A stretch of DNA of 64,000 nucleotides from Nitrospirales bacterium (GTDB taxonomy: Bacteria; Nitrospirota; Nitrospiria; Nitrospirales; UBA8639): assembly GCA_029261255.1 (NCBI GenBank), contig JAJDBQ010000005.1, positions 1 through 64,000 on the forward strand, written 5' to 3'. The notes below the pieces were generated by a model, which was not told the DNA's origin, did no database searches, and saw nothing but the letters and a program-made list of their open reading frames with translations. The position numbers and the translations under genes were made by a program. Positions 2,081-24,204 of the stretch are shown piece by piece. Every line of letters starts with the position of its first letter. Position 1 is the first letter of the stretch.

Positions 2081-2470
2081 ATGTCATTTCCACGTTCCTC
2101 CCGTCTCACATCATCTCTGGCCCTCAAGAAAGCAGGCACCCCGTCGGCCTTCACCTCTCTTCTGATCGCCGGGCTTCTTGGCATCCACCTTATTCTCATG
2201 ACGGTTGGAACATTTTGTGCGTCTACTGCAATCAATCCCAATTCTGCTCACCATGAGGATCATCAAACATCAACATCTATCCTCTGTGTCTGGGCGTGCC
2301 AGGTTGGGCAAATAGCGGCTTCAGCCACGCCAACAGAAAACCTGACCTCACTTCCCCTGCTCATCCTTCTTGGGATCATCATTCCCCTCACGATTCCCGT
2401 TATATGTTCTCCCTTCTCCTTTGCATCCCCCCGTGGACCCCCATTGCTGTCAGTCTCCGTCTATTCCTAA
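2081..2470 (+). CDS. Small secreted His/Cys protein, DUF2946-like (copy 1)
   Basis: This is a 129-residue protein with a hydrophobic N-terminal segment (about residues 24-47), a His-rich patch (HHEDH) and a C-V-W-A-C-Q core. A second hydrophobic stretch follows and the tail contains S-P-R-G-P-P. The same layout recurs in three other genes in this window (2978, 22482, 25706), so it is a real paralogous family. The layout resembles, from memory, the DUF2946 family of small proteins found beside TonB-dependent copper receptors. Metal binding by the His and Cys residues is an inference. It lies 18 bp after exbD and may be the last gene of that operon. Confidence 0.6.
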   Translation: MSFPRSSRLTSSLALKKAGTPSAFTSLLIAGLLGIHLILMTVGTFCASTAINPNSAHHEDHQTSTSILCVWACQVGQIAASATPTENLTSLPLLILLGIIIPLTIPVICSPFSFASPRGPPLLSVSVYS

Positions 2471-2662: not shown

Positions 2663-2869
2663 ATGAATCAAGAATTGTTACGTGTCGGCGAAGCCGCTAA
2701 AGCGTTAAACGTCAGCCGCTGGACGATTTACCGCTGGGTAGAAGAAGACCGCCTCAAAGCCACAAAGATAGGCAAAGGGAGCTTGCGAATCTTCCGTGAT
2801 TCTATCGACACGTTGGTTGAACTCAACCGAAAAGACTATTGGGAACCTGTGCCGACAGGAACACGATAA
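2663..2869 (+). CDS. Excisionase/MerR-type helix-turn-helix DNA-binding protein
   Basis: This 68-residue protein is almost entirely one winged-helix DNA-binding domain of the excisionase (HTH_17) type. It shows LLRVGEAAKALNVSRWTIYRWV followed by a G-S-L-R-I wing and a final helix. A ribosome site (AAGGAGG) lies upstream of the ATG. The family includes phage excisionases, but many are chromosomal regulators. No integrase or phage gene is nearby, so it is more likely a local transcription regulator. The target is unknown. Confidence 0.8.
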   Translation: MNQELLRVGEAAKALNVSRWTIYRWVEEDRLKATKIGKGSLRIFRDSIDTLVELNRKDYWEPVPTGTR

Positions 2870-2883
2870 TTTTTTATCTGATG

Positions 2884-2911
2884 TGTTGCAGGAGACGGCA
2901 CCCATCTGTAG
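2884..2911 (+). promoter_or_regulatory. Recurring 28-nt TGTTGCA...GTAG element (site A)
   Basis: This is one of four sites of identical length sharing TGTTGCA at positions 1-7, GC at 15-16, AT at 21-22 and TAG at 26-28. It lies 66 bp upstream of the small His/Cys gene at 2978. Position 8 is G here, where the other three sites have T. It could be an operator or an ECF-type promoter. Confidence 0.45.
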
Positions 2912-2977
2912 ATGAACATCCACAAAAGGCGTAGGGTGGTGTTGAGGGTGATAACCCATAAACTTCCTGGATAACTC

Positions 2978-3286
2978 ATGAGTCCTCAATCTGTTCAAAA
3001 AATTCTGGCCGTTGGACTTGGGCTATGGCTCCTTGTTGTCACTACCGCATTGGCTAGTCCTATGACAGGGCATGCCGTCGATCATCACCACACGCAGCAA
3101 AGTCACTCTCAACCCTGGTGTGATTGGATGTGTAAGGCCAGTCACGCAATTCACACACCATCGGCCTCACTTATTCAATCATACGGTGTTCTCACATCAG
3201 CCTACCACCCCCCTCACACTCATCACCTGTCTTTCCTCATTTCATCAGCAGATTCGCGAGCACCGCCAGCCTTCTCGCTCTCTTAA
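2978..3286 (+). CDS. Small secreted His/Cys protein, DUF2946-like (copy 2)
   Basis: This 102-residue protein has an N-terminal signal-like hydrophobic segment (about residues 9-27), then a His-rich stretch (DHHHTQQSHSQ) and the core W-C-D-W-M-C-K. The tail contains S-R-A-P-P. It is a paralogue of the proteins at 2081, 22482 and 25706. A site of the recurring 28-nt element lies 66 bp upstream. It is followed by the secreted-protein gene at 3494, exactly as copy 3 (22482) is followed by its paralogue at 22953. Metal binding in the envelope is inferred from composition only. Confidence 0.65.
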   Translation: MSPQSVQKILAVGLGLWLLVVTTALASPMTGHAVDHHHTQQSHSQPWCDWMCKASHAIHTPSASLIQSYGVLTSAYHPPHTHHLSFLISSADSRAPPAFSLS

Positions 3287-3330
3287 GCTGTTCGTTGGCA
3301 TCACACAGTAAATGCCAACGGCCCGGAACT

Positions 3331-3440
3331 GTTCAAAAAAGTCCATGCAGCAAGCCCACAGCCAATTTCAGGCGCGGAGAATTTCATTCGTCCGGGAGCA
3401 TCGGAAATTGGGGAAAACGTCGCTGTCGGATTTTTTCAAC
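3331..3440. repeat. ~110 bp imperfect palindromic intergenic repeat (copy A)
   Basis: The ends are inverted: TTCAAAAAAGTCC at the left and GGATTTTTTCAAC at the right. The interior matches the elements at 19481-19590 (opposite orientation) and 39386-39495. Lengths are nearly identical. It sits between two genes and has no coding capacity. The A/T-rich ends flanking a long stem could also act as a bidirectional terminator. Confidence 0.75.
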
Positions 3441-3493
3441 ACGCCCCAGAACGGGAACCTCTGAGTGTCTTTCATTTGAGGAGGTGATGAACA

Positions 3494-4243
3494 ATGTTTC
3501 TTACTCAATATACATTCCGACGTCGGGTGACAAGATGGAGCATCGTGCTCGTAACCGTATTCAGTATCTCAGCGCTTCCGTTATCAGCATATGCCGAGCA
3601 TTTGCTTGCTCTTAGATTAGCCCCAACACCCTTTAGCCCAAGCATGTGCAAAATTTCCAAGGAAGGCTCATTCATCAGAATTCTTGCAGCAAAACATCGA
3701 AATCTTTTTCTCCAAATTGTTCCTGGACAATACCATCCCAGGAATAAGGAAAAATCCAGGCAGAAAGACTATGTCCATTTTGTCACGCTGGCTGACTTGA
3801 CGGACGGGAAAATCGTAGGCGCTGCGATTGCTTTTGACAATCGGCATGCCGTGATCTTTGATGACGCACATCCTAAAGGCCTTTCTCGTCCCAAATTTCT
3901 AACACGACTACCTGAGCAGCAACGTCTCATTGCTGAAATGGCATTAAATACTTTTTTACGCCTCCACTCCATTTTCAATGCAGCCGTCGACTCTTGACTC
4001 CCTCATCCCGCAATTCCTGACTATGAAAATGATGATCATGTGTTACGAATTGAGGGAGGACAACTCACATTTAAAAATCTTGTAGAACACTACAACCAAC
4101 AGCCCGCATCCTCTGAAAAGCTCTATTTTTTTGAATCAGGTATGAGAAACGGCTACGTCGATCCTGAAGCTGGGAAAGGTACTAACATCAGTTACCACGC
4201 CATGAATCCACTTAACTTTTACGTCCCAACCTCTTTTCCCTAA
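3494..4243 (+). pseudogene. Secreted protein interrupted by in-frame TGA (paralogue of 22953 gene)
   Basis: A signal peptide (about residues 12-34) opens a protein that aligns along its whole length with the protein at 22953-23693. A TGA at 3995-3997 falls exactly where the paralogue has a Cys codon (...AA-[IV]-D-[TS]-Cys). The frame continues open to 4243 with conserved blocks (ESGM, DPEAG, NPLNFYVP). A good ribosome site (GGAGGTGA) precedes the ATG. Only two residues are candidates for pairing: Cys in FSPSMC and the TGA position. A nonsense mutation is the simplest reading; selenocysteine or readthrough is the alternative, though I see no convincing SECIS hairpin after the TGA. The function is unknown. 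Confidence 0.65.
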
Positions 4244-4272
4244 CATACCCAATCATTTTCGCAGAAGAAGAC

Positions 4273-4302
4273 TGTAGCATATGTATGTATTCGTAGGTAG
4301 AC
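4273..4302 (+). promoter_or_regulatory. Variant of the recurring element (TGTAGCAT...GTAGGTAGAC)
   Basis: TGTAGCAT is followed after 10 nt by TCGTAGGTAGAC, about 120 bp upstream of the P460-like gene. The same two blocks occur upstream of the beta-propeller gene at 24398 (24271-24310), but there they are 20 nt apart, one helical turn more. This suggests a binding site tolerant of a full-turn insertion. Confidence 0.35.
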
Positions 4303-4423
4303 AAACTTATGAACTAATCCCTATCCTGAGTGGGAAAACTGAGCAAATGGAACACGTCATGATGTTGCATCGTCTCTCTGCATTCTTACAGGGTTTCTCA
4401 AAAATAACAGGAGGTAGCGGGCT

Positions 4424-4972
4424 ATGAAGAAGTTTGTGTTCATGACTATCATGTTGACAGTCATTGGATGTTCGTCCATGTCGATGACTCCCGTTGCACA
4501 ATCTGGCGGTATGCCGAAGGACGGGGAACTAGACTTCCCGAAAGACTACACCACCTTCCCAACATTCTTGAAGGGCATCCAAAAGCCAAATGCGGTTCGG
4601 GATCTGTATATCAATTCAACTGGGGCCGAAGCCCATCATGGAAAACCCTTTGCCAATGAATCCATCTTAGTCATGGAAATTTACAAGGCCAAGAAAGGTG
4701 ACGGTGAAGCGTTCGAGAAAGATAGCGATGGCCATCTCATAAAAGATGGTCTTGCCAAAGTGTATGTGATGCAAAAAGGCGCAGGCTGGGGAAAGCATGC
4801 ACCGGAAGGCCTCCAAAATGGAGATTGGATCTATTCAGCATTCACGCCGAATGGGGATCGCTTAGAGGTGGAATATGCCAAATGCCGGAGTTGTCATCTT
4901 CCCTTGGGTGATGCCAAAGATTACGTTCAGCGCTATGACGAATATTTTGAGAAACGAGTGCACATGCACTAA
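4424..4972 (+). CDS. Cytochrome P460-family lipoprotein
   Basis: This 182-residue protein has a lipoprotein signal (lipobox V-I-G-C at about residue 16). The body matches the cytochrome P460 family: a TTFPTFLKGIQKPNAVRDLY block, a K-V-Y-V-M-Q-K-G-A-G-W-G block and a C-terminal C-R-S-C-H heme c attachment motif. P460 enzymes oxidise hydroxylamine in ammonia oxidisers and use a Lys-heme crosslink; I cannot assign the crosslinking Lys by eye. A lipid anchor places it at the periplasmic face of a membrane. A GGAGGTAG ribosome site precedes the ATG. Its role here (nitrogen-oxide or peroxide chemistry) is inferred only from the family. Confidence 0.85.
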   Translation: MKKFVFMTIMLTVIGCSSMSMTPVAQSGGMPKDGELDFPKDYTTFPTFLKGIQKPNAVRDLYINSTGAEAHHGKPFANESILVMEIYKAKKGDGEAFEKDSDGHLIKDGLAKVYVMQKGAGWGKHAPEGLQNGDWIYSAFTPNGDRLEVEYAKCRSCHLPLGDAKDYVQRYDEYFEKRVHMH

Positions 4973-5032
4973 GCGTGAGAGTGGCAGAACTCTCATTTTT
5001 CCCCGCAGACACTCGTGTTTCTTCTTACATGT

Positions 5033-5109
5033 TCCAAGGTAGGCTCTTCCTCCTGACCTTGGACCACAGGGTGAAGGCATTTGGACCGACCTCCTTGGCC
5101 TTCACCCTG
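5033..5109 (+). promoter_or_regulatory. Double hairpin with Shine-Dalgarno-complementary loops (copy 1)
   Basis: The first hairpin pairs TCCAAGGT (5033-5040) with ACCTTGGA (5056-5063). The second pairs CAGGGTGAAGGC (5067-5078) with GCCTTCACCCTG (5098-5109), a perfect 12 bp stem. Both loops contain CCTCC. GACCTCC in the second loop is complementary over 7 nt to GGAGGTC, the ribosome site of the small gene at 5162. There is no T-run after this copy, unlike copies 2 and 3. Confidence 0.6.
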
Positions 5110-5161
5110 GCCTTTTCACAGCAAGACCAGTCTATTTTTGCCCCTAAAATGGAGGTCACAG

Positions 5162-5341
5162 ATGGACAAACAGGACAGAACCTTTTCCCACCAACTGGCC
5201 CGTCAACTTAGAATCCAAGACCTTCAAGGTCGATGGCGAAGAGTCTCCAGCCTAAGCCTCGCAGACTTTGAAGAACTCTGGAATGAAACAGCGGGGGAAA
5301 TACGTGAATGGAAAGGCTCGGAAGAGTTCAATCATGATTAA
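5162..5341 (+). CDS. Small hypothetical protein
   Basis: This 59-residue, Gln/Arg/Glu-rich, soluble-looking protein has no signal peptide and no recognised domain. The ATG at 5162 is chosen because GGAGGTC lies 5-11 bp upstream. The frame is open further upstream to 5081, but that would run through the hairpin element. The ribosome site is complementary to the loop of the upstream hairpin, so expression may be structure-controlled. Confidence 0.5.
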   Translation: MDKQDRTFSHQLARQLRIQDLQGRWRRVSSLSLADFEELWNETAGEIREWKGSEEFNHD

Positions 5342-5715
5342 GCGGAACGTCAGTCTACATTAACCTAAGCACAGTAATTGAGATCATGAACAAATTCAGA
5401 CTGTCGGGAAAGCATCGTTTCCTTTCTTTAATCTTCGACTACCTCGGCTTCTACAATCCCAAGGCTGATTACCTGAATCGTTAACGTCTAGCGATTCCTT
5501 TCTCCATCACCCCATACATTTCAACCTCTCGTCTGCCGAATAACCCGACAAAAATTCCTCGAATGTTGCATGCAGTAGCATGCATGAGTAGAACAGTTTT
5601 CAAACCTTTTGGTATCTTTCCCCGCCCGTTCGTTTCATCCTTCGAAATGGCTTAGTCCAAGAAATCATCTTTTTATTTTTCATACTTATTGCAGCGTAAA
5701 GGAGTAAAGACAGAC
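5342..5715 (+). other. Intergenic region upstream of receptor 1
   Basis: There is no convincing gene in this stretch. It holds one copy of the recurring 28-nt element (5564-5591). It also has ACTTATTGCAGCGTAA at 5684-5699, next to the ribosome site; the latter differs at only two positions from 15105-15120. Confidence 0.5.
5564..5591 (+). promoter_or_regulatory. Recurring 28-nt element (site B)
   Basis: It matches the shared pattern TGTTGCAT, GC at 15-16, AT at 21-22 and TAG at 26-28. Inside it TGCATGC-AGTA-GCATGCA forms a perfect 7 bp inverted repeat. It lies 125 bp upstream of the TonB-dependent receptor start at 5716. Confidence 0.5.
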
Positions 5716-7866
5716 ATGAAGAAGCTTGGTGTGCTCTCGACCTCGAGTGTGTCTCTCGCATTGATGACAGTAATCAGCTCCCCGTTCTTCACCGCATTTC
5801 TCGTGTTCGGTGAAACGACTGAATTAGAGAGAGATACGACAGTGACGGTGGCGGCCAGACAAGACAGTCCTGATACGCTTGCTTCCTCCAACACGACCGA
5901 CAATTCGTATTTCACGCTTGGCGAAGTTGTGGTCACAGGATCCGCAACTGGACCTCTCAAGAGCCAGGACGTCCTCACATCCGTCGATATCTTAGGAGCC
6001 GACGTCGTGGAAAATCGGAATGTCGATTTTGCATGGGAACTCTTTCGGCAAGCCCCGGGAGTCATGACCACAAATTTCAATCAAGGGGGAGTCTCTGGAA
6101 AATTTTCCTTTCGCGGGTTCAATGGCGAAGGAGAAATCAATGCCATTAAACTCTTGATCGATGGCATTCCAAGCAATACGAATTCTGGAAACATGGAGTT
6201 TTTGGACATGGTCTTTCCGCTGGATATCCAATCGATCGAGGTCATCCGAGGGACCAACGATGCCAGGTACGGATTACACAACATTGCGGGCAACGCGAAT
6301 GTCTTCACCCGCACTGGAGGCAATTACACCAAGGCACGCATCAGTTACGGAAGTTTCGGGACGGTTGATGTGCAAGCCTCTTCGGGCTTCGAGACTGGTG
6401 GATTCTCACAAAACTATTTTGCCGCCTATCGTGAAACTGATGGCTATCGGGATCATTCAGATTTGAACAGATACACCTTTGCAGGAAAATGGTTTTACTC
6501 TCCGCCGAGCGCCAGCTACAAAGTCGGACTCATTGCCCGATTATATGAAAGTGAAGCTGATTCCCCTGGCTATCTCACCATGGATGAATCACGCAGCCGC
6601 CCAAAAAAATCTCCGTCGTTTAATAATTTTGACGGGACTGAACGACAAATTAAGACCGTCAGCGGGCACTTCGATGCCGACGTGACGTCGGATCTCTTCT
6701 TTTCTCTGAAAAGTTATGTCAATAAGTTCGATCGAACCCGCTTTGTGAAATTTACTGCCGCAAATCCTCAACAAGAACGAATTACTGATGAGCTGCAATA
6801 CGGGGCCATTGCCACACTGACCTACCGACCTCACATCCCGTGGTTCGATGATTTTGTGCTAGAAGGCGGCTTTGATTTCCAACAACAAGAAAATGAAAAC
6901 ATTCGTTATACGGCGATACAACGGCGGCGGCAGGAGCTCACTCGCAATCAAGAATTCGACTTCCTGATCTATGGCGGGTTTTTACAAGCCGTCATCAAAC
7001 CAGTACATTGGCTCAAGCTTGTTCCTGCCGTGCGAATCGATTCCGCTGATGGCGACTTAGTCAATCGTCCGACGGATACAAGCCCCAGTACCGTGTTAGA
7101 TCTCAATGACTATGATGCGATCTGGCAACCAAAATTCAGTGCCGTCATTACCCCCATTGAAGGTTATAGTCTCTATGGGAATTGGGGACGCACGTTTCAG
7201 GTTGGCATTGAGGCCGGAGCGTATCAACAGCTCAATGGGCCAGAGCTCAAACCCTCAATTAATGATGGCTGGGAGATGGGCATAAAGCTGAGTCCCGTCA
7301 CATGGATGGAAGGGCGCATCGCCTATTGGGAGCAGACGGCCGACGACGAAGTGCGACGATTGTTTACTGGCTCCGGCGAGAGTGAGAACATCGGTAAAAC
7401 CAAGCGCCGAGGATTTGATGCACAACTCCGTGCGAGACCCATCAATCCCCTCTCCATCTGGGCAGCCTTCTCCTGGCAAGAAGGGATCATTAAAAAACCA
7501 GGCCCACTCGAAAGCGGCAACAAAAATAATGAGATTGATCATATCCCTGACTATGTGGTTTCTGGCGGAGTTGATTATCAAATAACGCCGGCCGTCCGAG
7601 GGTCTTTCTCTATCTTTGCGCAAGGTGACTATTTCTTGAACAGAGAAAATGACACACGCCAATTTGGTGATTATTATCTCGTCAACCTAGGACTGTTTTA
7701 TCAAATCAACAAATATCTTGGATTAGACTTTCAAGTGACCAATCTCACCGACAAATATTATGAATATGTATGGGATGCAGGAAGCTCTCTCCACTCACCG
7801 GGTGATGGCCGAGCATTCTATGGTGCCCTAAATGTTGAATTCGACTTGTTAGACAAAATCTTATAG
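5716..7866 (+). CDS. TonB-dependent outer-membrane receptor 1
   Basis: The protein has 716 residues from the ATG at 5716, which has AAAGGAG 12 bp upstream; an in-frame ATG at 5689 lacks this. A signal peptide is followed by a plug domain. The plug has the TonB-box-like GEVVVTGSA region, then LIDGIPS, IEVIRG and a GxANVFTRTGG-type end. A 22-strand-type barrel with alternating aromatic segments completes it. There is no N-terminal STN signalling domain. The PepSY gene starts 6 bp after its stop, so the two are co-transcribed. The substrate is probably a metal chelate; which one cannot be read from sequence. Confidence 0.9.
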   Translation: MKKLGVLSTSSVSLALMTVISSPFFTAFLVFGETTELERDTTVTVAARQDSPDTLASSNTTDNSYFTLGEVVVTGSATGPLKSQDVLTSVDILGADVVENRNVDFAWELFRQAPGVMTTNFNQGGVSGKFSFRGFNGEGEINAIKLLIDGIPSNTNSGNMEFLDMVFPLDIQSIEVIRGTNDARYGLHNIAGNANVFTRTGGNYTKARISYGSFGTVDVQASSGFETGGFSQNYFAAYRETDGYRDHSDLNRYTFAGKWFYSPPSASYKVGLIARLYESEADSPGYLTMDESRSRPKKSPSFNNFDGTERQIKTVSGHFDADVTSDLFFSLKSYVNKFDRTRFVKFTAANPQQERITDELQYGAIATLTYRPHIPWFDDFVLEGGFDFQQQENENIRYTAIQRRRQELTRNQEFDFLIYGGFLQAVIKPVHWLKLVPAVRIDSADGDLVNRPTDTSPSTVLDLNDYDAIWQPKFSAVITPIEGYSLYGNWGRTFQVGIEAGAYQQLNGPELKPSINDGWEMGIKLSPVTWMEGRIAYWEQTADDEVRRLFTGSGESENIGKTKRRGFDAQLRARPINPLSIWAAFSWQEGIIKKPGPLESGNKNNEIDHIPDYVVSGGVDYQITPAVRGSFSIFAQGDYFLNRENDTRQFGDYYLVNLGLFYQINKYLGLDFQVTNLTDKYYEYVWDAGSSLHSPGDGRAFYGALNVEFDLLDKIL

Positions 7867-7872
7867 AACAAG

Positions 7873-9003
7873 ATGCCCGAAAAACGGCGAAACAAGGCCC
7901 GAAAGGTATGGCGGAATGTGCACATTTCTTTCGGCCTTGTTGTTGGCCTCCTCTTTGTGTTGACTGGACTCACTGGGAGTCTCCTCGTATTCTATATCGA
8001 AATTGATGAATGGCTGAATCCTGAGGTTACCTTCTCGCCAACCGAAGAATCATGGCAATCCTATGAGGACATGTTTCAAGCGCTCCGAACAGCGCACCCT
8101 ACCCGCGAACATTCCTGGCGGCTAGAAGTCCCATCTAGTCAAGGGCGGATGATCACTGCCCGCTATTACAAACCTAAAGAAACCGCTGACATCTCCTTTG
8201 CACCGCTGATGGTCTGGGTGAATCCCCATACAGTGGAGATCGTCAGCAGCCGCCTGTGGGGTACATTCCCCATGACTTGGCTCTATAATCTGCACTACCG
8301 GTTGTTACTCGACATGACTGGTAAGACTATTCTCACCTTTGTCGGTGTCTGTATCCTATTCTCACTCGGGACTGGCGTGTATTTATGGTGGCCAACAACA
8401 CGAAACCTCAGGCCGGCATTCACGTTGCAGACAAATGGCAGCACCAAACGTGTGCTGTATGATCTACACAAGCTCAATGGGATCTATGCCTTGATCTTTC
8501 TCCTTATACTTGTCGCTACCGGTACCTTGCTAGACTTTCCCTGGGTAGAACCAATGGTGGGCTCAATTTCTCAATTATATGAGCCACCTCGCACAGACTC
8601 CGTGTCAAACCAAGTGTCAGCACGAATCTCGGTTGATCAGGCCGTGGCCATCGGACAGGCACGTTTCCCAAATGCCAGGGTCAAATGGATTGAAACTCCT
8701 AATGGTCTAACAGGGAGTTATCGCATCAATCTCTGGCAGCAGGGTGAACCTAGTCGGCGATTTCCAAAAACCAATGTCTGGATTGACCAGTACACAGGAC
8801 ACGTGCTTTCCAGTCGAGATATCAAAGATGATTCTGCCGGCGACACATTCTTGCGCTGGCTCCATCCACTCCACAGCGGTCAAGTCTTGGGATTACCTGG
8901 ACGAATTCTGGTCTGTCTCTCCGGGTTGATACCCCTCGTCTTATATGTCACCGGAATCACCATGTGGTGGAGACGCCGAACAAGTAAGACAGTTCCCCCA
9001 TAA
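7873..9003 (+). CDS. PepSY-associated transmembrane protein 1
   Basis: This 376-residue inner-membrane protein opens with W-R-N-V-H-x-S-x-G and a first helix (about residues 16-40). It then has a periplasmic PepSY-type region, two or three central helices (about 145-225) and a last helix near 345-368. Conserved His residues occur in the first helix, in LHYRLL and in LHPLHSG. PepSY_TM proteins beside TonB-dependent receptors are thought to handle the imported metal complex, possibly as heme-dependent reductases. It is 6 bp downstream of receptor 1 and has a paralogue at 13643. Confidence 0.85.
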   Translation: MPEKRRNKARKVWRNVHISFGLVVGLLFVLTGLTGSLLVFYIEIDEWLNPEVTFSPTEESWQSYEDMFQALRTAHPTREHSWRLEVPSSQGRMITARYYKPKETADISFAPLMVWVNPHTVEIVSSRLWGTFPMTWLYNLHYRLLLDMTGKTILTFVGVCILFSLGTGVYLWWPTTRNLRPAFTLQTNGSTKRVLYDLHKLNGIYALIFLLILVATGTLLDFPWVEPMVGSISQLYEPPRTDSVSNQVSARISVDQAVAIGQARFPNARVKWIETPNGLTGSYRINLWQQGEPSRRFPKTNVWIDQYTGHVLSSRDIKDDSAGDTFLRWLHPLHSGQVLGLPGRILVCLSGLIPLVLYVTGITMWWRRRTSKTVPP

Positions 9004-9172
9004 CATCTTAGTAAGCTTCATCGAAAAAAAAATTGAACAAGGGCAACTCGCCTCAACACCTTTCAGGCAAAGGCCATGAGTTTCTTTCGAAACGAAACCA
9101 CACTGATCCAAGAGAAGGACAAAGGTCTCGACCGTAATCTGATCGAAACATTCCCTTTCAACATGGCCCTGT

Positions 9173-9206
9173 AGTATGCATTGATATATGTAGCATGGAT
9201 AAGTAG
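9173..9206 (+). promoter_or_regulatory. Variant of the recurring element upstream of the sigma factor
   Basis: The 3' half (GTAGCATGGATAAGTAG) matches site B (5575-5591) at 15 of 17 positions. The 5' TATGCAT block is about 6 nt further away than in the 28-nt sites. It ends 34 bp before the sigma-factor start codon, a promoter-like distance. Confidence 0.35.
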
Positions 9207-9240
9207 TTTATAAGGATAAAAGATTGCTATAGATGACCAC

Positions 9241-9768
9241 ATGTTTCTCTCTTTAGACCTGGAAGAACTTTTTCATTCATACCATCATTCTCTCGTGACG
9301 TACCTTCGCCGCCTGATGAAGTGTTCTCACTTCGCTGAAGAAGTTGCGCAAGATACGTATCTACGACTTCGAGCAAAAGGGCCAACGACCACAACAATCA
9401 ATCACCCTCGAGCGTACCTCTTTCGCACGGCGCACAATCTGGCGATGGATCAGCTCGCGAAACATTCTACTGAATGGAAACACCGCAGTTCTAGCGAAAT
9501 ACCGATTGATATTCCCAGTCCAACACCACAACCGGATACCATCGCTGAATCTCGACAACGTTTGCACAAAATCGCGACTGCCTTGAACGAACTTCCTGAA
9601 GCATGCCGTCAGGCGTTTATTCTGAATAAAATTCACCACATGACACATGCGGAAATTGCGCAGATACTCAATGTATCCCAAAGCATGATAGAAAAACATC
9701 TCATGCGAGCCCTTGCTCATTGCCGCGCAAAACTTCAGGACGAGAAGCCCAACTCTTCTTTCCTCTAA
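9241..9768 (+). CDS. FecI-type ECF RNA polymerase sigma factor
   Basis: This 175-residue protein has sigma region 2 (about residues 10-75, with YLRRLMKCSHFAEEVAQDTYLR and RAYLFRTAHNLAMDQ). Sigma region 4 follows (about 110-165, with LPEACRQAFILNKIHHMTHAEIAQILNVSQSMIEKHL). It is the FecI class that transcribes TonB-dependent receptor operons when released by its FecR partner. The FecR-like gene begins about 250 bp downstream and is followed by an STN-domain receptor, giving the classic fecI-fecR-fecA arrangement. The gap to fecR is unusually long. Confidence 0.92.
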   Translation: MFLSLDLEELFHSYHHSLVTYLRRLMKCSHFAEEVAQDTYLRLRAKGPTTTTINHPRAYLFRTAHNLAMDQLAKHSTEWKHRSSSEIPIDIPSPTPQPDTIAESRQRLHKIATALNELPEACRQAFILNKIHHMTHAEIAQILNVSQSMIEKHLMRALAHCRAKLQDEKPNSSFL

Positions 9769-10019
9769 GAACTCTACTACCCCTTTTCAGTGTCGACGTT
9801 TTCCCAAAACTTGCCTCGTCAGAGCCCGGATAGTGAGGAAGAAAACCTCTGAACCAGTCTCAGTAGGAAAGACCTATTCACTATGCTACCGTTAAGGAAT
9901 CGTTGAATGACTTTATGCAAAGAAAACCATGAGGTGCCACAGAATTGTGCAACCTATGACTGTGACTCAACTGATATCCGATTTTCTCACCCGATAGACA
10001 CCATCCGTCCGGATTTCCC

Positions 10020-11015
10020 GTGAAGCAGGAACACTCCAATCATTCCTCAGATTCTGACCAAGCGGCTTTGGAGTGGTTGATTCGATTGACATCGGGTAAG
10101 ACATCGAGTCAAGAACAGCAAGCATTTGACAACTGGGTCGCCGCCGATCCTGCGCATCGCCAGTCTTATGAAAACATTCTGAAAGTATGGAAGGAAACGG
10201 AACAGCTTGGTTATGACCAAAAGACTGGACGGGTCACAGTCCCCCATAATCCACGATATATAAAAAGGAGAAAACGGTCTCGAGGGAATTGGCAAACTCC
10301 CGCTCTGGCTGCAACATCTGTATTGGCCACATGCCTCTTTGTCATGTGGTGGACGGGATGGCATTGGCTGTTAATCAGCGACTACACAACCGATGAACTT
10401 CGACAAACGGTCCACCTTTCTCATGGCGTGACCATGACACTTGATGCCCAAACGGTTCTGGACATCAACGAACTTCCCGGAAAGACTCAAGTAAGATTGC
10501 GATCCGGTGCAGCCTGGTTCAAGGTCGAAAATACAATTGATGAACATCTCGTTCAAATCATCACTGACCATATAGCGGTGACCTCACTTGGAACGGAGTT
10601 TCTTGTCGAACAGCGTGTTTCCCATCAATTCGTTGCCGTCACTGAGCATGCTGTAGAACTAGCCTCTCGATCCTTTCCTTCTCAGCACACTCGACTTGAA
10701 GAAGGGCATGGCATATCCCTTGATGCCGGCTCAACTGCACCCTGGCGCGAAAGGCCTATTGATCCTGCGGTCATCGGCGCTTGGCGTCATGGCCGACTTG
10801 TTTTCGAAAACGCATCATTACAGCATGTCATTCAGCGCCTGGATGATTACCATCCAGGAATACTGCTCATCACTGATAACACCCTCCGCTATCAAAAGGT
10901 GAGCGGTGTCTTTGACATCGATCACCCAGATCAAGCTCTCGCCTCGCTGCAACTCACCTTTTCTCTCAAAATTCGTCGGATTTCCCCTTACCTGGTATTA
11001 GTCTCGAAATCCTGA
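10020..11015 (+). CDS. FecR-type anti-sigma factor/sensor
   Basis: This 331-residue single-pass membrane protein has an N-terminal cytoplasmic DUF4880 domain (about residues 12-65, ending in DPAHRQSYENILKVW). A membrane segment lies near 93-113. A periplasmic FecR domain (about 120-225, including LGTEFLVE) and a C-terminal STN-like domain (about 255-330) complete it. It relays occupancy of the receptor at 11140 to the sigma factor at 9241. The start codon is GTG with no strong ribosome site; the exact start is uncertain. Confidence 0.9.
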   Translation: MKQEHSNHSSDSDQAALEWLIRLTSGKTSSQEQQAFDNWVAADPAHRQSYENILKVWKETEQLGYDQKTGRVTVPHNPRYIKRRKRSRGNWQTPALAATSVLATCLFVMWWTGWHWLLISDYTTDELRQTVHLSHGVTMTLDAQTVLDINELPGKTQVRLRSGAAWFKVENTIDEHLVQIITDHIAVTSLGTEFLVEQRVSHQFVAVTEHAVELASRSFPSQHTRLEEGHGISLDAGSTAPWRERPIDPAVIGAWRHGRLVFENASLQHVIQRLDDYHPGILLITDNTLRYQKVSGVFDIDHPDQALASLQLTFSLKIRRISPYLVLVSKS

Positions 11016-11139
11016 ATCTGTCTCCAACGCTACATTTTTTCAACATTTCATTGAGGGAGAAACTCCTTCAACCCGTCTATAGCTATATCACGGAAAATCA
11101 TTCTGTTTTATTCAATTTACATCCTAGGGTAGGAGAGTT

Positions 11140-13602
11140 ATGTCAACCGCCAAACAATTAAGGCCCATCACTGCATTTTGGCTATCGAGAATCAGTCTTT
11201 TGCTCATTCTAATTCACAGTTACGTTGGACCCACAACGTCTGAAGCCAGAGTTCCTCACGATCACCAGGAAGAAATAGCCATCGATTTTCAAATTCCCGC
11301 TCAGACCTTATCCTCAGCTCTGACACAATTTGCTAATCAATCGGACCTGTTTTTGGTCTATAAAAGCGAGCTCACCCAGGGTCATCACACAACAGATGTC
11401 ATCGGGAAATTTACACCCGATCAAGCTTTAGGACTCTTGCTGCGCGAGACAGATCTGCTATACCGCACAACAGATTCCAGTACCGTCATGATTAATGAAG
11501 GCCTCCCACATCATCAACTGCAGGCGATGGCCGAAGAGCCACCTGGGGTTGAGATCAACACGTCTACCAGCCAACCAGTCCCGGAGGGAAATGTCGAAAC
11601 TCTTCCGGAAGTATATGTCCCGGGCTTTAAGCTGTTGCAAAAATCTTACAGCCTCCCCAATGCTACGACCGCCACCAAGACCGATACACCGATCATGCAA
11701 ACTCCAGTTTCTATTCAGGTGCTCCCGAAGCAAGTTCTGAATGATCAACAGACGATCAGACTGGAACGAGTCTTAGAGAATGTCAGCGGCATCTATCAAG
11801 AGCAGGGATTTAATCTCACCCAAATTTTCAATGTCAGAGGGTTTCAGACCTTCACGTACTATCGAGATGGCATGCCTATTGAGGGTGCACTACTGCAGAT
11901 CGGTCCACGAGAAATGGGGAATATCGAGCGCATTGAGGTCCTGAAAGGACCGGCTTCGTTTCTCTATGGTCGTATTAATCCAGGGGGCTTAGTGAATCTC
12001 GTCACCAAACAACCGCTGGCTCAACCTTACTATTCCCTGCAACAGCAGTTCGGTTCGTTTCAGCGCTACCGCACCACCGCAGATGCCACCGGACCGCTGA
12101 CCAAAGACGACACCGTGATTTACCGAATAAATTTCACTCATGAAAGCTCCGATTCGTTTCGTGATTTCATCGAGGGGGAAAGAATCTTCGTGGCCCCAGT
12201 CGTGCGCTGGAACATCAACAACCGGACGCAAATAACCTTCGAACTGGAGTTTCAACACGACGAAAATGTCGCTGACTGGGGCATTCCGGCCGTCGGTGAC
12301 CGACCAGCCGACATTCCGCGTAGCCGAAACCTGAGCGGGGAATCATTCAATGAGGCCAAATCTGATTCTCTTTTAGGAGGGTTTCATTGGTCCCATAACT
12401 TTGACGACAACTGGTCACTAACCCACCGATTCAATATGTTATTTACCAAGGAAGATGATCTTGGGTCTTTTCCACTAGCGGTTGGAGCGGATGGCCGGAC
12501 GCTTTCGCGGGCTGTTGCCGGATTTAAAGACAACGAAACCGATGTGTATTTCACAACAATGAATATCACCGGGTCATTTCAAACCTTAGGACTCGAACAC
12601 ACCATACTTATCGGCGGAGATTACTATAATTTGACAACTACTGGTGACTTTTTGGATGGCCCACTTAACTCGGTGGATATTTTCAATCCTGTGTTTTCTA
12701 CGGGACCTGCAGTCGTCAGTGCAGAGTTTCCTATCGACAACCACAAAGAACGGTTCGGGATCTATATCCAAGACCAGATCGCACTCCCGTTTAATCTCTA
12801 CCTCATGGCCGGTGGACGATTTGATTTCGTCAAAGTAGAAGATAACATTAGAAACGCAAAACAGGACGAAGAGGCCCTGAAGCCCAGAGTCGGACTGCTC
12901 TGGCAGCCTTTGTCTCAACTCTCGTTCTATGGCAGTTATGTAGAAAGTTTCGGTAGTGACGATTTTTTTATCGTCAATCCGGATGGGACCACACTCGATC
13001 CCGATACAGCCCAGCAATGGGAAGGTGGAATGAAAGCCGAACTATTCGATGGTCGTCTTCAGGGGACACTCGCCTTTTATCATTTAACGAAACAGAATAT
13101 TTCCACGCCTGACTCACTCATCGCAGGTTTTTCACGTGCCGTTGGAGAAGCCAGAAATCGCGGCATCGAACTCGACGTGACCGCTGAAATTCTTCCTGGC
13201 TGGCAGACGATCGGCGCTTATTCCTATATCGATTCCGAAATCACTAAAGGGAATAAGGGCAATCGCTTTGCCAACGTCCCACGCCACGGTGGTTCGTTTT
13301 GGACCACCTATGAAATTCAGGAAGGTAATCTGCGTGGGCTCACCCTTGGCACCGGAGTTGTGGCACGAAGCGAGCGAGAGGCGGACAACGCCAATACCGT
13401 GCAGTTGCCAGGCTACGCACTTGTCCATCTACTGAGTCGTTATTCGTGGACTCTCGGGTCATCACGAATGACGGCTCAGTTGAACGTGGACAACCTATTC
13501 AACAAGGAATACTTTCCGAGTAGCTTCAACGGTCGAAATCGAATTGATACAGGCGCACCACGCACATTCTTGGGATCCTTGCGCGTAGAATTTGGCGCAT
13601 AG
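11140..13602 (+). CDS. TonB-dependent siderophore-type receptor with STN signalling domain
   Basis: The protein has 820 residues. After a signal peptide come an STN domain (about residues 48-115, FQIPAQTLSSALTQFANQSDL...) that contacts FecR, then a plug (about 175-295, with QTPVSIQVLP, VRGFQTF, RDGMP, IERIEVLKGPASFLYG and GGLVNLVTKQP). A barrel ends in F-G-A. These are hallmarks of the FpvA/FecA-type siderophore receptor family. TAGGAGA precedes the ATG. The fecI-fecR pair upstream and the PepSY gene 40 bp downstream support a regulated metallophore uptake operon. Confidence 0.93.
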   Translation: MSTAKQLRPITAFWLSRISLLLILIHSYVGPTTSEARVPHDHQEEIAIDFQIPAQTLSSALTQFANQSDLFLVYKSELTQGHHTTDVIGKFTPDQALGLLLRETDLLYRTTDSSTVMINEGLPHHQLQAMAEEPPGVEINTSTSQPVPEGNVETLPEVYVPGFKLLQKSYSLPNATTATKTDTPIMQTPVSIQVLPKQVLNDQQTIRLERVLENVSGIYQEQGFNLTQIFNVRGFQTFTYYRDGMPIEGALLQIGPREMGNIERIEVLKGPASFLYGRINPGGLVNLVTKQPLAQPYYSLQQQFGSFQRYRTTADATGPLTKDDTVIYRINFTHESSDSFRDFIEGERIFVAPVVRWNINNRTQITFELEFQHDENVADWGIPAVGDRPADIPRSRNLSGESFNEAKSDSLLGGFHWSHNFDDNWSLTHRFNMLFTKEDDLGSFPLAVGADGRTLSRAVAGFKDNETDVYFTTMNITGSFQTLGLEHTILIGGDYYNLTTTGDFLDGPLNSVDIFNPVFSTGPAVVSAEFPIDNHKERFGIYIQDQIALPFNLYLMAGGRFDFVKVEDNIRNAKQDEEALKPRVGLLWQPLSQLSFYGSYVESFGSDDFFIVNPDGTTLDPDTAQQWEGGMKAELFDGRLQGTLAFYHLTKQNISTPDSLIAGFSRAVGEARNRGIELDVTAEILPGWQTIGAYSYIDSEITKGNKGNRFANVPRHGGSFWTTYEIQEGNLRGLTLGTGVVARSEREADNANTVQLPGYALVHLLSRYSWTLGSSRMTAQLNVDNLFNKEYFPSSFNGRNRIDTGAPRTFLGSLRVEFGA

Positions 13603-13642
13603 AATTTTCTATGGTACTCGCAGTTAGTCGATAGACAAACGC

Positions 13643-14971
13643 ATGACTCGAAACCTCTGGGTCTGGCTCCATCGATGGGCGGGGCTGGTGATGGCTGGCT
13701 TTTTAATTCTTGCTGGCCTCACCGGTAGCTTGATGGCGTTTTATCCCGAGCTAGAAGAGGCCCTCAATCCGCAGTATTATCCTACGTCGCAAGCTGGCAA
13801 CCCTCTCGACCTGGCAACCCTCATCGAGCGGGCAGAATTCCTCGCCCCGGAAGGCGAGGTCGAGGGAGTGTGGCTCCAGAGTTTTATGGACAACACGGTG
13901 GTTTGGGTTATTCCCAAAGACCCAGACCGACCGCTCACCTTCAATCAACTAATCTTTGATCCTGTGACTGGCCAAGAGTTGGGCCGGCGTCAGTTCGGAG
14001 CTCTTTCCGACGGACTCGGGAATCTGATGTCCTTCATCTACGACTTCCACTACAGTTTATCTTTGAACATGTACGGAGTGTGGGCACTGGGCATTTGCGC
14101 GTTGATCTGGATCATTGATTGTTTTATCGGCCTGTACCTGACGTTCCCAGTAAGACGGAGCACACAACAACCAACGCCAGATCCTGTCCAGGCAGCTCTG
14201 TCATCTCAAGAATCGCTCATGCCTGAGAAAAGGTTGGCTGAAGACTCTGGAATGCCGAGGGTCGGTCGCTCTTGGTGGACCCGTTGGAAACCGGCCTGGA
14301 AGATTCGGTGTACCAAAAGCCGATACCGGTTCAACTTTGACCTGCATCGAGCGGGTGGCTTGTGGCTGTGGCTGGCGTTCCTCATCTTTGCCTGGTCCGG
14401 GGTCTATATGAATCTTTGGGATACGGTCTATACCTGGACCACCCAGACCGTATTCGAATACAAAACTCCTTGGACCGAGTTGCCGGAATTGGACCCGCCC
14501 ATGACCAAGCCGGGCCTGTCATGGCGCGACGCACAAACACGGGGCGAACACCTCATGGCCGAACAAGCCAACGAGCATGGCTTTACGATCGAATCGCCTC
14601 ATATGTTGTATCTGCATCGCGCGAAAAGTGTGTACGAGTATGGCATTCGCAGTTCTCTGGACTTTCAAGGCCCACGCCGCAGTTTCACGAAAATCTTTTT
14701 CGATGCCCACACCGGCGAGCAAAAATTATTGCTGCTCCCATCCAGGCAATACACCGGCAACACCCTCACCAACTGGCTGGTCTCGCTGCACGAGGCCAAT
14801 GTGTTTGGTCTGCCCTACCGGATCTTTGTCTGTGTACTGGGACTCCTGACCGTCATGCTCTCCGTAACCGGCGTAATCATCTGGCTTAAAAAACTGCGGA
14901 GTCGGAAAATTGCGAAGAACAGACGGAGTACAATACGCACAACCAACCACGCCCATTCCTCGCGGCCATGA
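13643..14971 (+). CDS. PepSY-associated transmembrane protein 2
   Basis: This 442-residue inner-membrane protein opens with LWVWLHRWAGLVMAGFLILAGLTGSLMAFYPELEEALNP, the PepSY_TM signature. Further helices lie near 145-170, 235-260 and 395-415. Conserved His residues are in LHRW, FDLHRAGG and LHEANVFGLPYR. It is longer than its paralogue at 7873, with a charged insert (about 172-220). It follows the STN receptor, so it probably processes the ligand imported by that receptor. Confidence 0.87.
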   Translation: MTRNLWVWLHRWAGLVMAGFLILAGLTGSLMAFYPELEEALNPQYYPTSQAGNPLDLATLIERAEFLAPEGEVEGVWLQSFMDNTVVWVIPKDPDRPLTFNQLIFDPVTGQELGRRQFGALSDGLGNLMSFIYDFHYSLSLNMYGVWALGICALIWIIDCFIGLYLTFPVRRSTQQPTPDPVQAALSSQESLMPEKRLAEDSGMPRVGRSWWTRWKPAWKIRCTKSRYRFNFDLHRAGGLWLWLAFLIFAWSGVYMNLWDTVYTWTTQTVFEYKTPWTELPELDPPMTKPGLSWRDAQTRGEHLMAEQANEHGFTIESPHMLYLHRAKSVYEYGIRSSLDFQGPRRSFTKIFFDAHTGEQKLLLLPSRQYTGNTLTNWLVSLHEANVFGLPYRIFVCVLGLLTVMLSVTGVIIWLKKLRSRKIAKNRRSTIRTTNHAHSSRP

Positions 14972-15412
14972 TGCGACCCATAGTGAAGAGGAAGCCTTGA
15001 TTTCAGCTCTCATTTGTTGCATCGGTGTGCGATGATGACTAGACAGCAATGGATGTCATCCTTTAAAACTAGCATTGTTCGCTAATGCTGATTACGCTCC
15101 CCCGACTTACTGCAACGTAAGAATGGCAGACGGATTTCCCTTTATCCAGGTTGAAGCATAGGGAGAGAGCCTTCCTGCCCCTTCACCCTGTCTGTCTCTT
15201 ATGTACGGCATGGGCTCGATACGACGCCATCAGGATTTCTTCGACAAAGAAACGAAGTGCCTGCCAGGTGATCACGACATACCCTGGACATCTTCTCTTG
15301 AACAGAAAGAATATTCGCTACTCTGTGCAAGAGCACAACATCCTTTGCCATCAGCAAGCGCGTCAATTGTCGTTTTTTAGGACATCCCCCTCATTCCGGT
15401 TAACTTTCAATT
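14972..15412 (+). other. Intergenic region between PepSY 2 and beta-propeller 1
   Basis: I find no convincing gene here; a 117-codon frame from 15151 lacks family features and overlaps the beta-propeller start. The stretch contains the recurring 28-nt element (15015-15042) and the 16-nt sequence at 15105-15120 shared with 5684-5699. Confidence 0.5.
15015..15042 (+). promoter_or_regulatory. Recurring 28-nt element (site C)
   Basis: It matches the fixed positions of the family: TGTTGCAT at 1-8, GC at 15-16, AT at 21-22 and TAG at 26-28. CATCG-GTGTG-CGATG forms an inner inverted repeat. It is 371 bp upstream of the beta-propeller gene at 15413. Confidence 0.45.
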
Positions 15413-16663
15413 ATGACGAGGCATTTCTCTCTTACCGCCATCGCGCTGACGCTAGTCATAGCTACAAGCTCATGCCAGCCGGCAGAACCACCCGTACTCC
15501 CTAAACAGGTAATTGAAAATCCCGCTGCCGACGGTTCACGTCTTCCTCGTGTAACATCGTTACCCGGGGGAGGAATGATTATGAGCTGGGTAGAACCGTC
15601 ACAAAACGGATATAGCCTCAAGTTTGCGATCTACCAACATGACCAATGGATACGCCAAGGCGAGGTTGCACGGGGCTCTAATTGGTTTATCAACTGGGCA
15701 GACTTCCCGTCTGTCATTGCAATCGACCAGTCGTTTTGGCTCGCACACTGGTTGGTCAAACACCCTGGGGGAGGTGCGTACCATTACAACATCGCAACAT
15801 CTTTTTCCAAGGATGCGGGACAGACCTGGAGCATGCCGCAATCCCCTCATCATGATGAATCTGCGGCCGAACATGGATTTGCTTCGATCTTTCGCGTCGG
15901 CAAGGAGGCAGGAATGATCTGGTTAGATGGGCGGGAGTCCGTTCAATCCAAGACCCAGAACGCGTTGGCAGAAGGCTCCAACAACTATCAATTGCGTTAT
16001 TCACGCCTACGCCGCAATGGCAACTTTGATGCGGAACAGGTGCTTGACCATAATACCTGTACCTGCTGCGGGACAACGGTTGCCGTCACGACAGCCGGGC
16101 CGGTAGCCGCTTGGCGCAGCCGAACCGATGAGGAAATTCGCGACAACTACGTGGCACGATTACGCAATGGACAATGGTCAGTTCCTCAACCTCTCGGTTC
16201 AGAAGGTTGGGAGATCAACGGATGCCCAGTGAATGGTCCCATGCTAGCCGCCCGTGGTATGGACGTTGCCGCAACCTGGTTTTCAGCAGAAGGTGATCAT
16301 CCACGCGTCCGTGCCGCCTTTTCTCGTGATGGCGGGCAGACCTTCTATCAGACAATCGAAATAGACGAAATTGATCCTTTCGGGCGTGTGGGTGTCGCGT
16401 GGATTGATAACCGCACAGCGGTCGTATCTTGGATGACCGCGCTGAATGCCGCAACAAAGAAATCTCACCTAGCACTACGAACAGTCTCTGTCGATGGCTC
16501 CATAGGTCCGATACAGCGCGTGAGCGCCATCAGCGGCGGACGAGACACTGGCTTCCCGCAACTGGTTGCTGATAAGACAGGCTTACTGCTCGTCTGGACA
16601 GGGAAAACTCCTAAACACGGGATTCACACAATCTGGGTTCCTTCTCACGAATTGTCTCGTTGA
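15413..16663 (+). CDS. Secreted Asp-box beta-propeller (sialidase-like fold) with CxCC motif, copy 1
   Basis: This 416-residue lipoprotein has a lipobox ending S-S-C at about residue 21. Asp-box repeats of BNR/sialidase type are visible (SFSKDAGQTWS near 122, AAFSRDGGQTFYQ near 300). A C-T-C-C motif near residue 218 and a G-C-P near 270 are conserved in the paralogue at 24398. The fold is that of sialidases, but I see no reason to assign sialidase activity. The four shared Cys suggest a metal or heme site. It lies between TonB-receptor gene sets. Annotation pipelines would probably call it exo-alpha-sialidase. Confidence 0.75.
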   Translation: MTRHFSLTAIALTLVIATSSCQPAEPPVLPKQVIENPAADGSRLPRVTSLPGGGMIMSWVEPSQNGYSLKFAIYQHDQWIRQGEVARGSNWFINWADFPSVIAIDQSFWLAHWLVKHPGGGAYHYNIATSFSKDAGQTWSMPQSPHHDESAAEHGFASIFRVGKEAGMIWLDGRESVQSKTQNALAEGSNNYQLRYSRLRRNGNFDAEQVLDHNTCTCCGTTVAVTTAGPVAAWRSRTDEEIRDNYVARLRNGQWSVPQPLGSEGWEINGCPVNGPMLAARGMDVAATWFSAEGDHPRVRAAFSRDGGQTFYQTIEIDEIDPFGRVGVAWIDNRTAVVSWMTALNAATKKSHLALRTVSVDGSIGPIQRVSAISGGRDTGFPQLVADKTGLLLVWTGKTPKHGIHTIWVPSHELSR

Positions 16664-17201
16664 ACGGACGAGAGACAGAATGTATAAATTCCACGCTAAT
16701 TAAGAAAACCAATCCAACTCTTCCATCTACGCCCCTCCTCATCTCTAGAATTTCACCAGAGATACAGCATCGTTCTGACGCTAGGTTAGCTTAAATTTCA
16801 TCTAGCACAACCGCAAGCCATCAATCTGATAGTGCACTGTTCGATGCGGCAGCAAGGCACAAATTGCTGTTCGTGCATCGAAAAAAAATCAACGAAATGT
16901 CACATCTGTTGCATCAGTTAGCAATGATCCGTAGATACGTTTACATGAATTGAGCAATCATCATTGCGCCGCAAGAAAGACAACAAATGTCTTCCTTGCC
17001 AATTGATCCACACGACATTCTCTGCCGCTCTCCACTCCTACGGGAATCACGACTGTCCACCATGAGTGACGAGTTTTCCAAGAGAGGGTCGCCCCATGTC
17101 CATGTTCCAGATATGTGCTTGGATCATCCGATACGTATGAGTTTTTTCAATGACATACATCTTTTCTTGTCATCTATTTTTTACATTCAAGAGGAGAACG
17201 A
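16664..17201 (+). other. Intergenic region upstream of receptor 3
   Basis: No supported gene is seen. A 72-codon frame (16987-17205) has no family features and merely ends at the receptor start. The recurring 28-nt element lies at 16907-16934. GAGGAG at 17191-17196 is the receptor ribosome site. Confidence 0.5.
16907..16934 (+). promoter_or_regulatory. Recurring 28-nt element (site D)
   Basis: It fits the pattern TGTTGCAT, GC at 15-16, AT at 21-22 and GTAG at 25-28, with TTGC...GCAA as a local inverted repeat. It lies 267 bp upstream of the receptor gene at 17202. Confidence 0.5.
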
Positions 17202-21943: not shown

Positions 21944-22481
21944 AGCATGTCCTCCCAAGGCTCCCTAAAAACAAGAACGACTCGTCTCGAATGCGACTGT
22001 TTCTTCGTGCAAAATCCCAGATTCATTCGATGGAATGAGCATTCTAGCCTTGGCCAGCCTCACACACTTCTTAAGAAGAAGCGTGATGTAAAGAAAATTA
22101 AGTAAATACGGAATTCTTCCCTTATGTCTTTCTACGCCTTCATTGAAGAAACTGTCTACTCCTGTTTTCCAACTTATGCCTACCCATGCAACAAAAAACG
22201 TAGATGCCTACTCTAAACCAGAGCGTCAGAGACCTGACGCTAGAATTTTCCAAAACTCCGAGCAGCTGGAATATTCAATATGCCTCATCAAAACTCAGTC
22301 TTCCTTGACTGTCGTTGAAATGAGAATATCTATTCCTGCTGAATAGTATTTCAACAGGTCGAGAACATTCTCGATGTCTAAAAAGTGTAGTATCAGGAGG
22401 CACCGATAGGTGGAAAAATTGTCGCGAACCCGATATGTTGATCAGAGTAGTTGGATATTAGACTTCTCACTTCCTTGAGCT
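21944..22481. other. Intergenic region between divergent genes
   Basis: No gene supported; a 67-codon frame from 22143 has no recognisable features. ATGTTGATCAGAGTAG near 22435-22450 weakly resembles the 3' half of the recurring element found upstream of the other TonB-region genes. Confidence 0.4.
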
Positions 22482-22799: not shown

Positions 22800-22952
22800 T
22801 CGTTCGGTTGTACTCCTGTGATGATGGCAGCGCCTTCGCCGCGTTCCTAGGCATGTTCTTGCTGCCCTTATCGCCGAATCTAGACGCCTGAGATTCATCC
22901 GTCACTCTCAAAAAACGGATTTCTTGGGCACTATGTGGGGAAGGAAATCGCC

Positions 22953-24023: not shown

Positions 24024-24204
24024 ATCGACATAGACAACCATACGGCTCGTTGTCGACCTTGATGTAGCATCCGCTGGCAGACGGCGGTAGAACAGAGATC
24101 GTGAAGTGAGCTATATCTTGTTCAAATTGATGAAATTTATTTTCACTCTTCCTGTATCAAGTAGAACTGCGAGGAGGCAATCTGACCTTCAAGCAGGTTC
24201 TGCT

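Follow-up and report, generated by a model that had tools for sequence, protein, structure and literature searches.

The first 64,000 nucleotides of contig JAJDBQ010000005.1 (assembly GCA_029261255.1, a Nitrospirales bacterium), referred to here as the window, contain a recurring 28-nt element in front of TonB-dependent receptor (TBDR) genes and their neighbours. Analysis of this element in the window and in related genomes reveals that it is a genuine promoter signal, composed of three or four tandem repeats of 10 bases. A gene for a 68-residue winged helix-turn-helix (HTH) protein, similar in fold to the Streptomyces regulator BldC, adjoins one of the sites and largely co-occurs with the element in the Nitrospirales genomes searched, and this protein very probably reads the direct repeats at sigma-70 promoters. 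The whole region has the appearance of an uptake regulon not described before, which may respond to copper and is shared by roughly one in two of these genomes.

Architecture of the repeat element

The initial annotation had reported four sites that share TGTTGCA at positions 1–7, T at position 8 in three of them, GC at 15–16, AT at 21–22 and TAG at 26–28, upstream of a small His/Cys gene (2978), two TBDR genes (5689 and 17202) and a CxCC propeller gene (15413). This description is accurate, and the general picture drawn from it, a regulatory element with a conserved centre shared by uptake genes of a local regulon, is borne out. Once the sites are written as tens, they resolve into tandem 10-bp direct repeats with the consensus TGTWGCATNNGTNRGYANNSRTCAGTAGAC (based on 21 sites of three repeats, taken from four genomes), and the core GYA is present in every block. 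In this set G15 and Y16 are invariant (21/21 each) and A17 is found in 19/21, the search that recovered the sites of the relatives not having demanded the central G. The fullest examples of the repeat among the relatives are GTAGCATCCG TGAGCATCCG TCGGTAGAC. The number of repeats is usually three, with four at some sites, which lengthens the element by a step of 10 bp.

This step is apparent from the distance between the outer blocks. In exact matches to TGTWGCA-N-GTAGA within the window and the orthologous loci the spacings are 17, 27 and once 26, with no others; over all fetched loci the spectrum peaks at 17 (100 sites) and 27 (15 sites, plus 3 at 26), the remaining spacings having 0–8 sites each and a reverse-order control 0–3. 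Chance alone would produce TGTWGCAT-N16-GTAGA 0.003 times per window and 0.2 times per genome. When G is added at position 15, the 4.36-Mb genome holds exactly four copies of the pattern, each of them inside the window, where two further sites are one mismatch away from it (genome-wide statements are based on pattern searches). A weight matrix, trained on the same four-genome sites that it scores, gives 31.8–48.9 for the sites and 22 or less for the next matches, which separates the sites from the rest; most of these next matches also lie upstream of orthologous genes. The test of the matrix is that on loci picked by the BldC-like gene alone, described below.

Several variants with altered internal spacing had also been listed. 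The one at 4273 is in fact a full, in-register site upstream of the cytochrome P460 gene, whereas the spacing at 24271 does differ, because this site has four repeats and hence 10 additional bp. The variant placed at 9173 corresponds to a site at 9189 that consists of two degenerate repeats followed by a −10 and lies upstream of an extracytoplasmic function (ECF) sigma factor gene, and the one at 19763, near a DUF2164 gene, is not a site. Sites at 22386 and 24063 on the forward strand and at 22193–22155 on the reverse strand had been missed. A site-like sequence at 60886 is without a −10 and probably due to chance, and matches of the type TGAAGCATG...TTGTAGA, common to two genomes (G000 and G031), were set aside as they do not fit the pattern.

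The last repeat and the sigma-70 promoter

The dinucleotide TA is found 19 or 20 nt past GTAGA in 18 of 19 sites, and the summed match to TATAAT at this position is higher than in all of 20,000 shuffles. The same holds for the large set, with TA at the expected position in 96 of the 100 three-repeat and 14 of the 15 four-repeat sites and in few or none at other spacings. The −10 hexamer, TAnnnT, is located 17 or 18 bp beyond the −35 of the last repeat, TAGAC[AC], which is identical to TTGACA at up to five of six positions; the sites thus have the sigma-70 arrangement of a −10 TAnnnT placed 16–18 bp after a −35-like hexamer. The most economical reading of these sequences is that the last repeat (GTAGAC) would double as a −35 that departs from the consensus, TAGAC, the spacer being 17 or 18, and that the remaining repeats would be placed at about −60 to −40. 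Orthologous genes in related genomes also have such sites: the P460 site is conserved in G024 and G031, a site of four-repeat length stands in front of the G034 ortholog of TBDR 17202, and another, one base shorter, precedes the G031 ortholog of propeller 24398.

A probable BldC-like regulator

The regulator gene stops 14 bp before site 2884. It was missing from the list of open reading frames (ORFs), in which those below 70 residues had been excluded, and was found via clusters in other genomes: a small HTH protein emerged from protein clustering of 13 motif loci, and tblastn searches place a BldC-like gene in most motif loci. The protein matches PF12728 (HTH_17) with 43.7 bits for a cutoff of 27. 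Its AlphaFold model (predicted local distance difference test score 85) has the secondary structure E5–7, H8–15, H19–27, E33–36, E40–44, H45–55. The top Foldseek matches are the Pukovnik excisionase Xis (4j2n), which is also the nearest sequence in the PDB, and the BldC-DNA complexes 6ama and 6amk, and the model superposes on the excisionase and, with root-mean-square deviations of 1.0–1.4 Å, on DNA-bound BldC in the latter two.

On its target DNA, BldC forms head-to-tail multimers along direct repeats whose number varies, for instance two at whiI and four at smeA, and it can repress or activate (PMC5859096, PMC6428758). The Nitrospirales protein resembles Streptomyces BldC (6AMK, 6AMA) in its 68-residue winged HTH, a small single domain of MerR-like type with the same fold and no coiled coil, effector or sensor domain, and its putative binding sites are likewise direct repeats present in different numbers, three or four. 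The 9-bp AT-rich repeat with a C-G pair that characterizes BldC sites (AATTNNNNC) is not found here; the period is 10 bp and the core GYA instead of AATT. Moreover, BldC is a pleiotropic regulator of development, whereas the present protein would serve a dedicated local regulon of metal-uptake type and its gene is paired with ORFs resembling CruR and CutF. Given these differences in period and core, this is a BldC-like system, which would work like BldC, and not a strict or textbook member of the BldC family. Excisionases of phages and of integrative and conjugative elements with the HTH_17 fold (Pukovnik Xis 4j2n, RdfS 8dgl) are similarly close in sequence or fold, but the sites described here are promoters, and neither an integrase nor the ends of an element were noted in the vicinity.

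Co-occurrence of gene and motif in Nitrospirales

Absence of the element from relatives had been named beforehand as an observation that would speak against it, a test that the element passes. Among 236 Nitrospirales genomes the motif is present in 113, a reversed control giving 0 in all, and the BldC-like gene in 130; both occur in 109, the motif only in 4, the gene only in 21 and neither in 102, i.e. 25 genomes are discordant (Fisher 1e-39, a descriptive value that overstates significance since the genomes are related and not independent). Where both are listed on one contig, they lie within 1 kb of each other in 54 of 65 genomes and on the same strand in all 65. Two layouts recur: the site either follows the gene at 56–106 bp or precedes it by about 780 nt, in which case a CruR-like ORF lies in between. 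The association therefore survives rearrangement. In 14 genomes without a strict motif, loci were chosen by the gene alone, and matrix sites were found nearby in 11; shuffled controls yielded 1 match over the 17 gene-chosen loci scanned. The initial annotation had held that the nature of the element cannot be told from sequence, which was too pessimistic: co-occurrence and adjacency of gene and motif indicate one candidate reader, the 68-residue protein.

Motif clusters often comprise three to eight sites within 10–40 kb and hold TBDR, PepSY_TM, DUF2946-type and P460 genes, as well as a heavy-metal P-type ATPase with YHS domains in the one cluster annotated in more detail. Orthologs of the first propeller are limited to 4 of 396 Nitrospirota genomes, and the motif is far more widespread; no motif was found at the Nitrosomonas loci with propeller orthologs (L092, L093).

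CruR/CutF-like reading frames

In Bordetella pertussis the leader ORF CruR senses copper and controls a TonB transporter (PMC9426467), and CutF of Rhodobacter, with a CxxxC motif, acts by a related mechanism of opposite sign, copper raising expression of the downstream gene (PMC9973294). Both belong to DUF2946 and are small ORFs in which a cysteine pair (CxxC or CxxxC) precedes R[AG]PP by about 41–45 residues, upstream of a TonB receptor or a related gene. The window contains four ORFs of the type CxWxC/R[AG]PP, namely CVWAC-44-RGPP, CDWMC-41-RAPP, CSWSC-41-RGPP and CRWSC-44-RAPP, with the cysteine pair and the R[AG]PP near the C-terminus in the expected arrangement. The DUF2946 gathering score of 23.7 bits is nearly attained by a single one (25706, 23.4 bits), the other three being unreported, so that membership in the CruR/CutF group is based on motif and position. 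The ORF at 2081–2470 is itself under the Pfam cutoff, and its positional equivalent in L075 (13878–14225) weakly matches DUF2946 (E 0.0066).

In 24 of 35 loci the BldC-like gene is preceded, at a distance of 100–430 nt, by the stop of an ORF ending in R[AG]PP. Unlike CruR and CutF, such an ORF here also precedes a transcription-factor gene, which would extend leader-peptide control to a whole regulon. Autoregulation is implied at loci where a repeat site stands in front of both the CruR-like ORF and the regulator gene. In genomes of family f3 (L253, L264, L247, L256 and similar) a conserved gap of about 370 nt separates the CruR-like stop from the BldC-like start and could hold an RNA structure or a Rho site. 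In the window, two of the leader-like ORFs are each followed by a gene for a secreted-type protein that has an FSPxxC motif but no Pfam match (3494–3997 and 22935–23693). The two proteins are paralogs, the gene pair being duplicated.

Organization of the proposed regulon

Coordinates of the sites and genes are collected in Table 1. Window genes were assigned with Pfam and comprise TonB-ExbB-ExbD, P460, four TBDRs, PepSY_TM, CxCC propellers and FecI-FecR-FecA, to which the CruR/CutF-like ORFs are added.

Table 1. Repeat sites, regulators and regulon members in the window
Feature	Position	Strand	−10	Remarks
CruR/CutF-like ORF	2081–2470	+		CVWAC, 44 residues, RGPP close to C-terminus; 192 nt before regulator gene
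BldC-like regulator, 68 residues, winged HTH (HTH_17)	2663–2869	+		Located by tblastn with orthologs from motif loci; Shine-Dalgarno AAGGAGG upstream
Three-repeat site GTTGCAGGAG ACGGCACCCA TCTGTAGATG	2884–2912 (to 2937 with −10)	+	TAGGGT 2932–2937	Upstream of 2978
Regulon member, CutF/CruR-like ORF	2978–3286	+		CDWMC, 41 residues, RAPP
Three-repeat site	4273–4301 (to 4327 with −10)	+	TATCCT 4322–4327	Upstream of cytochrome P460 (4424)
Regulon member, cytochrome P460	4424–4972	+		Pfam
Three-repeat site GTTGCATGCA GTAGCATGCA TGAGTAGAAC	5564–5592 (to 5618 with −10)	+	TATCTT 5613–5618	Upstream of TBDR 5689
Regulon member, TBDR	5689–7866	+		Followed by PepSY_TM protein 7873–9003
Degenerate two-repeat site	9189–9207 (to 9233 with −10)	+	TATAGA 9228–9233	Seven nt before ATG of ECF sigma factor (9241)
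ECF sigma factor (FecI-type)	9241–9768	+		Probable regulon target rather than reader
Candidate ECF (FecI-type) promoter GAGGGAGAAACTCCTTCAACCCGTCT	11053–11078	+		Before FecA-type receptor 11140; distinct from 28-nt motif
Three-repeat site	15015–15043 (to 15069 with −10)	+	TAAAAC 15064–15069	Upstream of CxCC propeller 15413
Regulon member, secreted propeller	15413–16663	+		CTCC
Three-repeat site	16907–16935 (to 16961 with −10)	+	AATCAT 16956–16961 (weak)	Upstream of TBDR 17202
Regulon member, TBDR	17202–19460	+		
Site of four-repeat length	22193–22155 (to 22129 with −10)	−	TAGAAA 22134–22129	Upstream of gene 21958–21383 (−)
Three-repeat site	22386–22414 (to 22439 with −10)	+	TATGTT 22434–22439	Upstream of CruR/CutF-like ORF 22482
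Regulon member, CutF/CruR-like ORF	22482–22799	+		CSWSC, 41 residues, RGPP
Three-repeat site	24063–24091 (to 24117 with −10)	+	TATATC 24112–24117	First of two sites before propeller 24398
Four-repeat site GTAGCATTGG TAGGTAAACG TCAGCAGTCG TAGGTAGACC	24271–24334 (with −10)	+	TATCGT 24329–24334	Upstream of propeller 24398
Regulon member, propeller	24398–25690	+		CVCC; followed by DUF2946-like ORF 25706 and TBDR 26235

The candidate promoter at 11053 follows the form CATTGAGGGA-N-CCCGTCTA and has no further match in the window; the same form is found before two FecA-type receptors in L073 (8962 and 10905, both on the reverse strand) and near a FecA-type gene in L076 (13831). Located before FecA-type receptors, this element would be the expected target of the ECF sigma factor at 9241. 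The ECF gene itself appears nearly leaderless: in three genomes, its ATG follows a −10 (TATAGA, TATATA or TATAAC) at a distance of about 7 nt (window 9228–9241; L075 near 19543; L073 near 15578, reverse strand). As for the site at 9189, the −10 and the near-leaderless layout are conserved in G031 and G034, and the repeats only in part.

Further along the window, all on the reverse strand, a receiver-only response regulator (33999–34484) is conserved beside the cluster in four genomes (also L178 16519, L180 15730, L088 13938); 39511–41019 encodes a DUF559 nuclease-like domain fused to a peptidyl-arginine deiminase (PAD_porph) domain, and 44450–45883 a fusion of a BrkB membrane domain with an Rrf2-type HTH domain.

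Discussion

We propose that the element serves a local regulon as operator and promoter in one. The 68-residue protein would assemble head-to-tail along the 10-bp repeats with core GYA, which adjoin the −35 on its upstream side and overlap it, a four-repeat site accommodating one additional protomer. The targets most likely to be activated would be the TonB receptors, P460, the propellers and the ECF gene, whose product would then drive the FecA-type receptor from its own promoter. As the BldC-like protein has no sensor domain, its level would probably be set by the CruR/CutF-like, putatively copper-sensing leader ORF 2081–2470, and the regulon would be on under copper scarcity. In view of the CruR/CutF-like ORFs and the heavy-metal P-type ATPase we lean towards copper as the signal, and activation appears somewhat more plausible than repression. 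Combined, these elements would form a two-tier copper circuit of a new kind, which we put forward tentatively: a nascent-peptide copper sensor would set the synthesis of a sensorless, multimerising BldC-like activator, and at the last repeat, itself the −35, sigma-70 RNA polymerase would join the filament as its next unit.

A number of observations weigh against this model. The protein shares only about 24% of its residues with BldC, and its match to the phage Xis is just as good. The AT-rich repeats of BldC have a period of 9 bp, with guanines 2' and 11' contacted, compared with a 10-bp, GYA-centred repeat here, so that the contacts must differ. No site was found at three tested gene loci, and the motif is present without a detected gene in four genomes (three incomplete drafts and one that is 92% complete). 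A CruR-like ORF is not seen before 11 of the 35 genes, some of them at locus edges. The association may also fit a cluster that is mobile or inherited as a whole and whose sites are read by another protein. Finally, a protomer bound to the last repeat could hinder sigma region 4 instead of helping it.

An alternative is that the same BldC-like protein is a repressor, whose multimer would cover the −35 and whose synthesis would be raised by copper in the manner of CutF, turning uptake off. Coincidence of the last repeat with the −35 speaks for it, as do the repression of many targets by BldC itself and the positive response to copper of CutF, unlike CruR; on the other hand, the −35 is persistently non-consensus (TAGAC), as at activator-dependent promoters, and the repeats run upstream and not into the spacer. 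We give repression a fair probability, but a lower one than activation.

OmpR/PhoB-family regulators also bind direct repeats of 10–11 bp overlapping the −35; the tor boxes of TorR and the pho boxes of PhoB are such tandem decamers (or 11-mers) ending at a sigma-70 −35. A member of this family encoded elsewhere could read the repeats: the four genomes searched have 7–9 PF00486 matches each, with four full-length orthogroups shared, and response regulators are named in the BldC paper as the other direct-repeat binders. The tor and pho boxes are served by two-component response regulators, however, and no such reader was found in the clusters; none is encoded in their annotated parts, whereas the BldC-like gene is, across the order, which makes this explanation improbable.

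The initial annotation had offered two further interpretations, neither of which is sustained. Taken as the −35/−10 pair of an ECF sigma factor, e.g. that at 9241, TGTTGCAT and GTAGA have the two-block layout of FecI-type promoters with about 16–17 nt between the blocks, and a FecI-type gene is present in the locus. Such promoters consist of two boxes at fixed spacing and start transcription just past the second, whereas the spacing here is 17 or 27, repeats being added in 10-bp steps; a conserved GYA lies in mid-spacer, and a sigma-70-type −10 follows further downstream, 19–20 nt past GTAGA, at the same distance in the sites that are one turn longer. This −10, together with the separate candidate FecI-type promoter before the FecA-type receptors, is a strong argument against the ECF pair, to which we assign very little probability. 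A binding site for one of the classical metal repressors (Fur, Zur, CopY or CsoR) would agree with the metal-uptake type genes and the copper-linked CruR/CutF-like ORFs, but is equally improbable, since the consensus is a direct repeat of variable number and not a palindrome, is located at and upstream of the −35, and adjoins a BldC-like gene, no gene for such a repressor being present in the annotated cluster parts.

Reading of the repeats by the BldC-like protein thus remains the preferred explanation. A search of mainly open-access literature returned no paper that ties BldC- or excisionase-type proteins to copper, TonB receptors or Nitrospira. BldC-like proteins are said to occur in some 500 species (PMC5859096). 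Few of those beyond Streptomyces have an assigned role, and for the present one the operator is sharply defined, the candidate regulon is compact and there is a candidate for the input, whereby the operator code, the counting of repeats and the coupling to sigma-70 become testable. For the Nitrospirales, many of which are nitrifiers, this provides a concrete hypothesis for the control of metal uptake, probably that of copper.

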